From: Armatimonadota bacterium
GTDB lineage: Bacteria; Armatimonadota; UBA5829; DTJY01
Length of the DNA stretch: 39,315 nt
Assembly (NCBI GenBank): GCA_025358205.1
Contig: JANYKG010000192.1
Location: 1 to 39,315, forward strand
Reading direction: 5' to 3'
Shown here: piece after piece, positions 359-14,275 of the stretch
Position numbering within the stretch: the stretch's first letter is position 1
Layout of the letters: every line of letters starts with the position of its first letter
Notes under the pieces: generated by a model
What the model was told of the DNA's origin: nothing
Database searches by the model: none
The model's input: the letters and a program-made list of their open reading frames with translations, nothing else
Made by a program: the position numbers and the translations under genes

Positions 359-1240
359 ATGTACAATCAAATTTCCTCAAACGTCTGGCGGTCATACGGC
401 TTCATGTTTCTCTTCATCATCCTCCTCGGAGTTGTGGGGTGGGCATTTGGCGAGTACACCGGGTATCACTACATCCTTCCCATAGCGGTGGTGGTTGCCG
501 TATTCACCAGTATCGGGAGCTACTACTACAGCGACAAGATCGTGCTGGCGATGTCATCTGCACGCCCGGCGACCCGTGAAGAGAATGCTTTTCTGGTCAA
601 CTCCGTGGAAGGACTGGCGATGGCGGCGGGCATACCCGTGCCGAGGATATATGTCATTGACGATACCGCGCCGAACGCATTCGCGACAGGCCGTGACCCT
701 GCTCATGCCGTTATCTGTGTTACGAGCGGAATCATGCAGAAACTCAATCGAGTGGAACTGGAAGGCGTCATCGCACACGAGATGTCGCATATCAAGGGTT
801 ACGACATCCGTCTTTCCGCCATTGTAGCGATACTGGCGGGGACGATTGTGCTGGTCTCCGACTGGCTGCTCAGGAGCATGTGGTGGGGTGGAGGCCGACG
901 CCGGAGTCGCGACGATAACGGAAACCCGATCATGCTAGTGGTTGCGCTTGTTGCGGCGATTCTGGCTCCGATCATCGCGACCATGATGAAGCTGGCGATA
1001 TCCCGGCAGCGGGAGTTTCTGGCGGATGCTCAGGGGGCGATGCTGACCCGGTACCCGGACGGACTGGCCAGCGCTTTGGAAAAGATCGCCCTGGACCCGG
1101 AGCCGCTTGAAGCCGCTAACAAGGCTACTGCGCACCTGTACATCAGCAATCCCCTGAAGCAGCACGGCGGCATGCTTAACGCGCTCTTCAGCACTCATCC
1201 GCCGACCGAAGAGCGGATCAAACGGCTGCGGGCGATGTAG
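359..1240 (+). CDS. htpX: Membrane zinc metalloprotease HtpX (M48)
   Basis: This 293-aa protein has the HtpX layout. Two hydrophobic helices lie near residues 14-30 and 37-53, the zinc-binding helix HEMSH is at residues 140-144 (ligands His140 and His144, catalytic Glu141), two more membrane segments lie near 153-172 and 190-211, and the third zinc ligand is Glu219 in the REFLAD motif. HtpX degrades misfolded or damaged proteins of the cytoplasmic membrane with its active site facing the cytoplasm. The length is normal for the family. A short glycine/arginine-rich insertion (WWGGGRRR) sits between the third and fourth membrane segments. It follows lemA and is only 4 bases ahead of an MFS gene, so the three may be co-transcribed. 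The ATG at 359 has no clear ribosome site because the repeat element runs up to it. Confidence 0.95.
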   Translation: MYNQISSNVWRSYGFMFLFIILLGVVGWAFGEYTGYHYILPIAVVVAVFTSIGSYYYSDKIVLAMSSARPATREENAFLVNSVEGLAMAAGIPVPRIYVIDDTAPNAFATGRDPAHAVICVTSGIMQKLNRVELEGVIAHEMSHIKGYDIRLSAIVAILAGTIVLVSDWLLRSMWWGGGRRRSRDDNGNPIMLVVALVAAILAPIIATMMKLAISRQREFLADAQGAMLTRYPDGLASALEKIALDPEPLEAANKATAHLYISNPLKQHGGMLNALFSTHPPTEERIKRLRAM

Positions 1241-10470: not shown

Positions 10471-10495
10471 GGTGGTGCTCCTCTCCGGGCAAGAT

Positions 10496-10562
10496 ACTCG
10501 ATTCTTGATTCTAGATTCTCGATTCCGACATCCGCATTCCGCAATCCGAAATCCGAATTGCG
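10496..10562. repeat. Period-7 repeat tract upstream of the GH38 gene
   Basis: About nine consecutive 7-base units drift from GATTCTT/GATTCTA through CATTCCG to AAATCCG, each differing from its neighbour by one to three bases. It lies directly upstream of the GH38 start. Confidence 0.9.
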
Positions 10563-10581
10563 CAGACTCTTACTCTCTCCG

Positions 10582-10653
10582 ATGGTGATGATGGTCACAT
10601 GGTCCTATGGTCAGATGGTCATTCCGCAATCCGACATCCGCAGTCCGCAACGG
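10582..10653. repeat. Joined period-8 and period-7 repeat tract
   Basis: Units based on ATGGTCAC (period 8) occupy 10582-10620 and switch without a gap to units based on CATCCGC (period 7) at 10621-10653. The tract is about 130 bases upstream of the PIN-GNAT gene and forms the left edge of the island. Confidence 0.88.
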
Positions 10654-10782
10654 CATAAGTATCTCCTGAAGAGAGTGGATGTGTCAAGAAGGTAGGAACT
10701 AACAAAGGGAGGAACGAACAGAGGTGTGTAGAATATCACAATAGTGTCGGAAGTAACCGCTCTATACTTGTGGGAGATACAT
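10654..10782. other. Upstream region of the PIN-GNAT gene
   Basis: These 129 bases are the non-repetitive remainder of the 312-base gap between the divergent GH38 and PIN-GNAT genes. They are AT-richer than the neighbouring genes and probably hold the island promoter, but I could not pick a convincing -35/-10 pair. GGGAG at 10772-10776 is the ribosome binding site for the ATG at 10783. Confidence 0.5.
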
Positions 10783-12543
10783 ATGCAGACATTCGTTGTG
10801 GACACAAACGTTCTGTTGCCTCTACTTAAGGAACATGACGAGCGCGTGACTGCTTTTCTGTCTGCAACACGCTTGCGAACCGATCTCGAGTTCCTCATTA
10901 CCGAAGCTCTTCACTTGGATTTGCAGACAGATAGGGATACCGAGCGGCGGAGAGTTCACCAGTCACTTATATCCACACTTCAGACTATCAATGCGCCCAC
11001 CGAAGCGCAAAGGGATAATATCGGTGAAGAATGGCTGCAGCATCTTTTCCCCCTTTCCGTACCTGGCTCAAGAACCTACGATCATAATCGCAGAGATGCA
11101 TTGCATGTCGGCTTGTCAGTTAGTCGTGGTGCTGATTATTTCGTAACAGAAGACCAGGCACTTCTCAAGAAGTCGAACTGCAGTCCTTTGGGCGATACTC
11201 AGTTGATAAGTTTTGACAGTATGTTGAAGGTGCTTACGGAGTCTACACGAGCCAAAGCTGACAATTGGATTAATTATATTGCCGGGCAGACGGCATACAT
11301 TCGCTCATACAGGCCAGAGGACCGTACCCGCATTGAAGCCATTGCGCTGGAACTCAGCAATGTCTACCCCGGAGTACTCAAATGGCTGTCTGGGAAGCTT
11401 GATATCGCGGACAGGATGGCGCGGGGTTGCGACGAACCTGAACCAGTGCGCATCTTCCTTCCATTCATTGGCGATGCTATAGCTGGCTATGCTTTGTATA
11501 CTAATCGCAAAGATGGCAAGACAGCGAAGTTGGGTACATTCTACTTACTGGAGGGGTATCGCCAGCTTAGCATCGGCTATCATCTCCTCTACCATCTGCT
11601 GCAGCAATGGGATGCGGAAGGTGTGGAGTCCGTTCATGTGACTTTCACAAAGGAGTTGCATGGAAGACTGATGCCCATATTCGACCGCTATGGCTTCGAA
11701 TTGGTGGGCCATGTCCCGGAGGCGTATCGCCCTGGGACTTCCGAATTAGTTGCACGTAAGCGTTTCATAGGTCAGGTCATCTACGAGCATGATTTCGCCG
11801 ACTTCGTCCGTTCCCACTACATTTCCGCTCTGCCAGCAGACGTGAACGAAATGGGCGGTGATAGATTTCAGGTACACGATTACCTAAGAAATGCGACAGA
11901 CACTATTGGCGTCCGGATACAGTCTGATGCAAACGATGATCCACAAGTGGAGAGAATGATATGCATGTGCCCCACGCCAGAACCGGATAATCGGATCGTA
12001 GACGGTTTGATGCTGGAAAGGATGCTATACCCTCTGGAGATTCGGTGGCCTGACCGTCAGCCATTCCTTATACCCATCAGAGAGGAGTACGCGAAAGGGT
12101 TTTTCCAGTTTGTCGACAAGCAGCTTGCTCTGCTTCAGCCCACTGAGGATGAGATGAAGAGGCTGCTAAGGCCGGACAATATCTTCTTCAAAGCCCCAAA
12201 CAGTCGCATAAAGCGAGGTGATATCGCAATATTCTACGTGTCTAGTCCTAGGCGACATCTGATTGGGGAGGCTGTTGTGACGGAAGTGGAGGTCGGTGCG
12301 CCAAGTTGTCTGTACGCCAAGTTTGGTGCAAAAGGGGTGCTGAGTATGGAGGAAGTGGAGGCTTACGCACGGAAAGGTAGAGTGTTGGCATTTCGATTTG
12401 ACTTTTTTCGAAGATATCGACGGGCAGAGCGAATGGACTTCAAATATGTCAAAAAACTGGTGCCATCTTTCAACCCGATAACCTACTACGCAATCCCGTA
12501 CGAAACTCTGGATAAGATACGGGAAGATGGAGAGAGGCTGTAA
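10783..12543 (+). CDS. PIN nuclease-GNAT acetyltransferase-PUA-like fusion protein
   Basis: The 586-aa product starts at ATG 10783, 6 bases after GGGAG. Residues 1-150 form a PIN domain: FVVDTNVLLP carries Asp7, with further acidic candidates Glu41, Asp105 in RRDALHVG, and Asp118/Asp124 in GADYFVTED, so the metal site looks intact. Residues about 170-335 look like a GNAT domain, with YIRSYRPEDR at its start, an acetyl-CoA-loop-like YRQLSIGYHLL, and a closing YGFELVGHVPEAY. After a less clear linker, residues about 455-586 resemble a PUA-like (ASCH/EVE) fold, with RIKRGDIAIFYV and LIGEAVVTEVE. PIN domains cut RNA, GNAT domains acetylate amines, and PUA-like domains bind modified nucleic acids; the combined role is unknown. 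Base composition is visibly less GC-rich than neighbours. Its stop overlaps the next start (TAATG). Confidence 0.75.
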   Translation: MQTFVVDTNVLLPLLKEHDERVTAFLSATRLRTDLEFLITEALHLDLQTDRDTERRRVHQSLISTLQTINAPTEAQRDNIGEEWLQHLFPLSVPGSRTYDHNRRDALHVGLSVSRGADYFVTEDQALLKKSNCSPLGDTQLISFDSMLKVLTESTRAKADNWINYIAGQTAYIRSYRPEDRTRIEAIALELSNVYPGVLKWLSGKLDIADRMARGCDEPEPVRIFLPFIGDAIAGYALYTNRKDGKTAKLGTFYLLEGYRQLSIGYHLLYHLLQQWDAEGVESVHVTFTKELHGRLMPIFDRYGFELVGHVPEAYRPGTSELVARKRFIGQVIYEHDFADFVRSHYISALPADVNEMGGDRFQVHDYLRNATDTIGVRIQSDANDDPQVERMICMCPTPEPDNRIVDGLMLERMLYPLEIRWPDRQPFLIPIREEYAKGFFQFVDKQLALLQPTEDEMKRLLRPDNIFFKAPNSRIKRGDIAIFYVSSPRRHLIGEAVVTEVEVGAPSCLYAKFGAKGVLSMEEVEAYARKGRVLAFRFDFFRRYRRAERMDFKYVKKLVPSFNPITYYAIPYETLDKIREDGERL

Positions 12544-12959
12544 TGTGCGAACCGATTCTCTCGATTCACCCTCAGTACGCGGAGGCCATCTTTGCAGGAA
12601 CGAAGACCGTGGAGTTCAGACGGCGGGCTATCTCAGTACCCGAGTCTTCTCGTGTTTGGGTCTATGCGACCCAGCCGGTTGGGGGCATCGTAGGATATTT
12701 CGAGATCAGCGAGACAGTATGCGATACGCCTGACGCTTTGTGGAGGGAATACTCCTCCGTGGGAGAGATAGAGAGAAGCAAGTTCGAGCAGTATTTTGAT
12801 GGTTGTTCAGTCGGACACGCAATCGTACTCCGCGAAGCTGTCGAACTGCCATCGCTGTTGCCTCTAGAGGAAATAAGGGAAACCTGTCCGGAGTTTAGGC
12901 CCCCTCAGTTCTACATACGAAATATCCCCCTATCGCTGGCTGCGCTACTAGCCCGATAG
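12543..12959 (+). CDS. ASCH domain protein
   Basis: A 138-aa protein that is essentially one ASCH domain: LSIHPQYAEAIFAGTKTVEFRRR near the start contains the G-x-K-x-x-E-x-R signature of the family, followed by strands VWVYATQPVGGIVGYFEI. ASCH domains have a PUA-like fold and are thought to bind RNA; some act on modified nucleosides. Its ATG overlaps the stop of the PIN-GNAT gene by one base, so the two are translationally coupled and made together, which suggests a shared complex or pathway. No membrane segment or signal peptide is visible. It could be an accessory specificity or immunity subunit, but that is inference. Confidence 0.85.
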   Translation: MCEPILSIHPQYAEAIFAGTKTVEFRRRAISVPESSRVWVYATQPVGGIVGYFEISETVCDTPDALWREYSSVGEIERSKFEQYFDGCSVGHAIVLREAVELPSLLPLEEIRETCPEFRPPQFYIRNIPLSLAALLAR

Positions 12960-12988
12960 CCGTTAAGCAAGCATGAGAGTTCGTTGCT

Positions 12989-13372
12989 ATGTCCATCATG
13001 CAGCTATCCATGTTCGAAAGCGAAAACACCGGACCCATCAAGGCGCTGTCGGTCAGGCAACCGGCGGCGAACAAGATCGCGGCTGGTGAGAAGACCATCG
13101 AAATCCGCACGTGGACCACGCATTACCGGGGCGATCTGCTGATCGTCTCCTCCGCCTCCCCGAAGATCGCGCCCGCCGGGTGCGCGCTGTGCATCGTCAG
13201 GCTGGCGGACGTCCGGCCAATGACAAAGGACGACGAAGCTGCCGCTTGCTGTTCCTGGGACCAGACCTACATCTCATGGGTGCTGACCGATATCCGCCTC
13301 ATCGAGCCGTTCCCCGTCAAAGGCAGGCTGGGGATCTACGAAATCCAGTTACCAGTAAGCAGTGATCGGTGA
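12989..13372 (+). CDS. Second ASCH domain protein
   Basis: A 127-aa protein with a second, distinct ASCH domain: IKALSVRQPAANKIAAGEKTIEIRTW has the G-x-K-x-x-E-x-R signature near residues 36-43, followed by YRGDLLIVSSA and CALCIVRLADVRPM strands. It resembles the ASCH group that begins with SxRQPxA, different from the group of the gene 29 bases upstream, so this is not a simple tandem duplication. The ATG at 12989 has no strong ribosome site. The last residues (about PVSSDR) and the stop codon are encoded by a period-7 repeat, so the original end of the protein may have been replaced. It sits at the right edge of the island and its base composition is closer to the chromosome than that of the PIN-GNAT gene. 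Confidence 0.82.
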   Translation: MSIMQLSMFESENTGPIKALSVRQPAANKIAAGEKTIEIRTWTTHYRGDLLIVSSASPKIAPAGCALCIVRLADVRPMTKDDEAAACCSWDQTYISWVLTDIRLIEPFPVKGRLGIYEIQLPVSSDR

Positions 13373-13815: not shown

Positions 13816-14275
13816 GGACTCGACCATCTCCACAGCGGGCGAGAAGGACAATCCGCCGCGCACAACGAACTCGCTTATCAACAGAGTGCAGGCCTCAGGA
13901 TGGGGGCCGATGTGGAGGTTGGCAGTTTTGAACCTTTTTGACTTGCCCGAGGGTTCTCGGTCGAGCTGCTTCTGCCGAACTGCCCGTCTTTCTGCATCGC
14001 ATACCTGGGCGCCGACCCCACCGGTATTCATCCTCCTGCATTCCTGGTTTCCTTATAGATCATCCCGGTGATTTGGAAACTGCGCACCTTAAGTACGATA
14101 CGTTATAAAACACGGTCGCGCCGAAAGACGGGAGCGTCGCGGATTGACGGAATGTTTGCACATGAAATGATTGTGGAAACATATTGGCGAAAAAACCCGT
14201 CATAGAACAAGGAGGAATTACCTCCGGCGCCGTGGAACACACGGTGGAAGACTGTGAAAGCGAGGGGAGCTACTA
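13816..14275. other. Non-coding stretch and leader of the secreted protein gene
   Basis: I see no gene in these 460 bases. The last 200 bases are AT-richer and include TTATAAAA (14103-14110), a possible promoter element without a good partner, and two small hairpins, GGAGG-AATTA-CCTCC near 14210 and CCGTG-GAACA-CACGG near 14230. I tested the region by eye for common riboswitch cores and found none. AGGGGAG at 14263-14269 is the ribosome site for the GTG at 14276. Confidence 0.5.

Follow-up and report, generated by a model that had tools for sequence, protein, structure and literature searches.

The window analyzed here comprises positions 1 to 39,315 of contig JANYKG010000192.1 of an Armatimonadota bacterium (assembly GCA_025358205.1). 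Three consecutive genes lie downstream of an alpha-mannosidase (GH38) gene and upstream of a gene of unassigned function (g14276), dnaG and rpoD. The first encodes a fusion protein with PIN, GNAT and EVE/PUA-like parts, and the other two encode ASCH proteins, ASCH1 and ASCH2 (Table 1). The original prediction joined all three genes into a single RNA-directed system of defence, toxin or RNA quality control. All three open reading frames proved genuine. The predicted translational coupling between the fusion and ASCH1 was borne out by the sequence, where the TAA stop codon of the former (12541-12543) and the ATG start codon of the latter (12543-12545) share one base. ASCH1 and ASCH2 are separated by 29 bases.

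Table 1. Coordinates of the features at the locus and of examples of the related 700-aa proteins.
Feature	Position	Strand	Assignment or remark
PIN-GNAT-(disordered linker)-EVE/PUA fusion, 586 aa	10783..12543	+	PADLOC PDC-M11A
Domains of the fusion (residues)	PIN ~1-145; GNAT 170-330; linker 353-404; EVE-like 410-586		AlphaFold2 model
ASCH1, 138 aa	12543..12959	+	PADLOC PDC-M11B; closest solved structure ZmASCH
ASCH2, 127 aa	12989..13372	+	Other ASCH subgroup; resident gene, outside the system; nearest solved structure, ASC-1 ASCH domain
Dispersed intergenic repeat	10490..10670	.	Outside the system; separates the cassette from the alpha-mannosidase gene; matched at 27 places genome-wide
700-aa proteins (range L036-L115), examples	L058:5911-7974; L040:3953-6022; L060:5387-7543		GNAT-PIN-GNAT*-EVE

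Sequence profiles, an AlphaFold2 model and Foldseek together recovered the PIN, GNAT and C-terminal PUA-superfamily domains that had been proposed for the fusion. The GNAT domain scored above the Pfam cut-off (PF00583, 5.3e-6), the PIN domain gave a weak, sub-threshold Pfam match (PIN_3, 0.013), and the PADLOC model PDC-M11A matched at 1.4e-23, best over residues 3-330, which comprise PIN and GNAT, and over a second stretch. The AlphaFold2 model, built from a 50-sequence alignment, had a mean pLDDT of 78.5, with values mostly between 75 and 95 in the PIN, GNAT and C-terminal domains; it contained a low-confidence linker and, C-terminal to it, a beta-barrel domain. The fold of the middle and C-terminal parts was a check set beforehand. 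Among the best 50 Foldseek matches in the PDB, the middle of the protein matched GNAT enzymes and the C-terminus matched ZmASCH, with TM scores of 0.80 to 0.85 by target length, so that both the GNAT and the PUA-like fold were recovered. No PIN structure was found among these 50 matches; the PIN call thus rests on the sequence profiles and on the secondary structure of the model. The acidic residues of the PIN site (D7, D46, D105 and D124) are all present. Across 42 relatives the columns of D7 and D124 do not vary, and the aligned relatives shown also carry acidic residues at the positions of D46 and D105. The fusion itself scored below the Pfam EVE threshold. We call its C-terminal domain EVE-like because aligned relatives reach that cut-off (5.7e-6 for L036 and 8.3e-5 for L029).

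Pfam ASCH was found in both downstream proteins. ASCH1 matched the PADLOC model PDC-M11B (PDLC04425) at 9.5e-35, and ASCH2 received no such assignment (0.054). The closest solved relative of ASCH1 is ZmASCH (1.6e-20), a Zymomonas mobilis protein (PDB 5gus and 5guq) that binds nucleic acid and weakly cleaves single-stranded RNA, with no nuclease activity seen on DNA or double-stranded RNA (PMC5615036). Its cleavage involves Tyr47, Lys53 and Ser128. The tyrosine is kept in ASCH1 as Tyr41, but the lysine and serine are replaced by Gly47 and Phe123, and we rejected a single-stranded RNA nuclease of the ZmASCH type on that ground. Other full-length relatives lack a conserved lysine at this place too, and the residue varies through the family. 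Since ASCH1 retains one of the three named residues and the lysine is so variable, we take ASCH1, from its sequence, for a binding protein and not a nuclease. Another ASCH protein, E. coli YqfB, acts in nucleoside catabolism as an ac4C amidohydrolase with the triad K21, T24 and E74. ASCH1 keeps K21, but a motif alignment (K21-T-V-E) puts Glu24 at the place of the YqfB nucleophile Thr24, and activity of the YqfB type is therefore not expected.

The fusion and ASCH1 differ from their surroundings in base composition. Their GC contents are 0.50 and 0.54, respectively, as opposed to 0.58 for the window, and their GC3 values are 0.53 and 0.58, as opposed to 0.80 for the neighboring alpha-mannosidase gene of the host. 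The composition of ASCH2, by contrast, is that of the host (GC 0.60; GC3 0.80, as in the alpha-mannosidase gene), and thus the claim of a composition unlike the chromosome held for the first two genes but not for the third. The family's four other genomes all have g14276 next to dnaG. In two of them, whose contigs reach several kb further upstream, neither the cassette nor ASCH2 could be traced upstream of this gene pair, and none of the four gave a match to the fusion. Across the phylum, a full-length M11A protein was found in 6 out of 291 genomes, the window's own excluded, and none of the 291 contained a close relative of the window fusion. Direct searches of viral contigs, phages, plasmids and a collection of 84,980 species genomes likewise returned no close relatives of the fusion. 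Relatives of the module at large occur in many phyla, on plasmids and on viral contigs. The sparse distribution, the foreign composition and the spread over phyla, plasmids and viral contigs form the pattern of a mobile conflict module. The fusion and ASCH1 are an imported two-gene unit.

A scan with sequences of the ASCH1 type, based on a three-sequence ASCH alignment, yielded 80 loci from a wide range of phyla, and together with loci collected earlier the classified set came to 98. All 98 carried an M11B-type ASCH gene and were sorted by what adjoins that gene. A recognizable fusion partner was present at 78 of them: 45 encoded proteins of about 700 aa with a GNAT-PIN-GNAT*-EVE order, 24 encoded PIN-GNAT-EVE proteins of about 490 aa, and 9 encoded shorter proteins, which were counted as GNAT-EVE although one of them (L027) is a split PIN-bearing protein. 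The remaining loci were contig ends, fragments or unrecognized. In 34 of the 38 testable pairs of the 700-aa kind, the two genes overlap or nearly abut. Most relatives share the window's order of a fusion gene and an M11B-type ASCH gene, and ASCH2 is not part of what is kept.

Several loci in this set depart from the common arrangement. In L064, L065, L067, L069, L072, L106, L111 and L025, the ASCH gene lies upstream, not downstream, of the PIN-GNAT-EVE gene; the ASCH protein is often longer in these loci, with an annotated helix-turn-helix in L025. In L009 (G066:C4), the M11A gene is broken by one TAG and possibly inactivated. A Streptomyces branch (L068, L073, L077, L083-L086, L093, L094 and L098) lacks the Asn of the PIN DxN motif (e.g., VDHGVF and VDHSVF), a possible loss of nuclease activity, and keeps the gene pair. 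Because these members retain the pair without the Asn, cleavage by PIN may not be universal.

The 98 related loci contained no ASCH2-like neighbor; the only hits were cross-matches to M11B proteins and one marginal match, a 107-aa open reading frame in L114 (E 0.03). A copy of ASCH2 with 88% identity lies on another contig of the same genome (C45:368-727 of G000). Relatives with 56 to 57% identity occur in two genomes of the class (G244 and G240), not beside M11A but between genes that, judging from their translations, encode an HflX-like GTPase and a DegT-like aminotransferase; the M11A gene of G240 is on a different contig from its ASCH2 relative. The absence of such a neighbor at related loci, the location of its relatives elsewhere and its host-like GC3 led us to reject ASCH2 as a third component and to define the imported unit as two genes with ASCH2 as a bystander. 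Of the two ASCH proteins that the original prediction coupled to the fusion, the second exists and does belong to a different subgroup, but only ASCH1 is a partner. The repeat clusters thought to border the cassette on both sides did not hold up as island borders, being dispersed, intergenic and genome-wide: the left repeat recurs as listed in Table 1, and on the right a 65-base stretch (14003-14067) recurs on contig C45. The left repeat is of the CATTCCGCAATCCGA type.

The domain content, C-terminal fold, gene pairing, foreign composition and clade membership of the window pair, all established directly, can be compared with known systems. According to Bell et al. 2020 (PMC7641849), who cite an earlier description by Iyer et al. 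2013, EVE domains occur on the C-terminus of GNAT proteins, often with an N-terminal PIN domain; an ASCH gene is almost always present and an AAA_17 ATPase gene often, and the genes are found near restriction-modification (RM) and CRISPR systems. That paper predicts (PIN)-GNAT-EVE + ASCH operons to be toxin-antitoxin or defence systems and states that no module in them has been characterized by experiment; our search of the literature likewise found no experimental work on any member. The window pair has the same PIN-GNAT-EVE order and an ASCH partner. In PADLOC, both genes match the candidate anti-phage system PDC-M11 (PDC-M11A + PDC-M11B), and they are coupled in the order found in most relatives. 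The pair thus combines a GNAT domain, a C-terminal EVE-like domain, an N-terminal PIN domain with its acidic site, and a coupled M11B-type ASCH protein. There are also differences. The fusion is just 19 to 23% identical to typical M11A proteins of 484 to 493 aa and is longer in the linker that joins GNAT to EVE (residues ~330-415); it falls outside the PIN-GNAT-EVE/GNAT-EVE clade in the EVE tree, and no AAA_17 ATPase gene was seen beside the window pair. The system is therefore of a known kind, not a new one, and the window pair is a genuine, very divergent member of it.

The 700-aa proteins consist of a canonical N-terminal GNAT domain, a PIN domain, a GNAT-like region mostly undetected by Pfam and an EVE-like domain. 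Their 45 loci come from Planctomycetota, Verrucomicrobiota, Actinomycetota, Acidobacteriota, Bacillota, Pseudomonadota and Cyanobacteriota, among other groups. For a 687-aa member, the AlphaFold2 model (pLDDT 84) showed the same series of domains, with PDB matches to GNAT and ZmASCH, and the PADLOC M11A models match these proteins only in part. We did not find this type described; the words GNAT-PIN do not occur in the text of Bell et al. 2020 (PMC7641849), whose figures may depict it.

Two trees connect the window pair with these proteins. In the EVE-domain tree, one side of the main split holds the ~490-aa and GNAT-EVE proteins, and the other unites the window protein with those of ~700 aa (SH-aLRT 100 for the split). 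In the ASCH tree, ASCH1 belongs to a group in which every recognized partner is a 700-aa protein (SH-aLRT 92). Both window branches are long, and their exact placement is unsure. The window shares with the 700-aa type the EVE domain, the ASCH partner group and a linker motif that reads LERMLYPLEI in the window and ER..WPaK in the family. Unlike the 700-aa proteins, in which a GNAT domain precedes PIN, the window protein has a single GNAT after PIN, and no coding sequence for an N-terminal GNAT was found upstream of position 10783. This GNAT scores best, if weakly, against the ~490-aa type (21.0 bits) rather than against GNAT1 (14.3 bits) or GNAT2 (7.9 bits) of the 700-aa family. In domain order the window protein thus follows the known type, but in its EVE domain, linker and ASCH partner it goes with the 700-aa proteins.

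This link to the 700-aa proteins, drawn from sequence comparison, is what may be new here. One tentative reading, less likely than not in our view, takes the window protein for a surviving intermediate that links the described PIN-GNAT-EVE defence proteins to the large GNAT-PIN-GNAT*-EVE family, itself apparently undescribed. In the 700-aa proteins, the N-terminal acetyltransferase would then be active and the one after PIN would have degenerated into a scaffold, and both lineages would work with the same ASCH partner, EVE and ASCH serving as the two readers of a sensor by which two different RNA-attacking enzymes are licensed.

As to the function of the window pair, the best explanation, which we regard as probable, is a horizontally acquired two-gene module of the (PIN)-GNAT-EVE + ASCH kind (PDC-M11), toxin-antitoxin-like or acting by abortive infection. 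The idea of a defence or toxin module that senses modified nucleic acid agrees with the prediction of Bell et al. 2020 (PMC7641849) and with PADLOC PDC-M11, except for its reliance on two ASCH proteins. The neighbors of the related loci include Hma, Lamassu, DISARM, type IIG RM, AbiD, SoFic, DUF499 and AAA_17 proteins, a qualitative result, as a small set of ordinary genes (methyltransferase, DnaG) also gives PADLOC matches. The window pair stands alone among housekeeping genes, which counts against the defence reading; location in a defence island is a common trait of these systems, not a defining one.

For the target, the trigger, toxicity and an antitoxin role of ASCH1, we infer the following scheme. 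A flipped-out modified base would be bound in each of two pockets, one in the EVE domain of the fusion and one in ASCH1, and ASCH1, produced in a coupled ratio, would hold or license the fusion. The trigger would be a marked nucleic acid that appears or changes during infection, with tRNA or another RNA as the likeliest candidate. PIN would then cut the marked nucleic acid, and/or GNAT would acetylate it or its aminoacyl group, and translation would be stopped during infection.

The strongest competitor, although an unlikely one, is a defence directed at modified DNA, in which the EVE domain and ASCH1 would recognize a modified base of phage DNA, as EVE proteins of type IV restriction are thought to do, GNAT would modify DNA or a DNA-bound protein, and PIN would serve as a downstream suicide RNase. 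The paper by Bell et al. 2020 (PMC7641849) mentions ASCH-HsdS and HTH-ASCH fusions, proximity to type I RM, a suggestion that ASCH proteins in such operons bind modified DNA, and DNA-base acetylation as proposed by Iyer et al. 2013. At least one alphaproteobacterial relative is paired with a helix-turn-helix/ASCH protein, but no HTH is fused in the window. A preprint reports that the ASCH-fold protein BapA is a 5hmC DNA glycosylase defending against T-even phages, whereas ZmASCH acts on single-stranded RNA. The retention of a ribonuclease-type domain in every PIN-bearing architecture found here also points to RNA.

A host enzyme of RNA quality control or stress, rather than a conflict system, would suit the solitary position of the pair in a housekeeping neighborhood and the precedent of YqfB. 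We consider it improbable given the loss of the YqfB nucleophile in ASCH1, the rarity of full-length M11A in the phylum, the foreign composition and the occurrence in many phyla, on plasmids and on viral contigs. A decayed or inactive remnant, to which the very long branches of both proteins and the retention of Tyr41 alone might point, is very improbable, as the reading frames are open and coupled, the PIN acidic residues are intact and the folds are confident, and the loss of a lysine that other full-length relatives also lack is no mark of decay.

The preferred reading, a toxin-antitoxin-like or abortive-infection module, concerns a widespread group: (PIN)-GNAT-EVE + ASCH modules are found in defence neighborhoods, on plasmids and in prophages. 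The survey suggests that many of the M11B-type ASCH partners belong to the 700-aa branch that PADLOC covers partly, and such systems may therefore be under-counted. With its true partner ASCH1 told apart from the bystander ASCH2, the window pair, only two genes in size and intact in its PIN site, lends itself to experiment.
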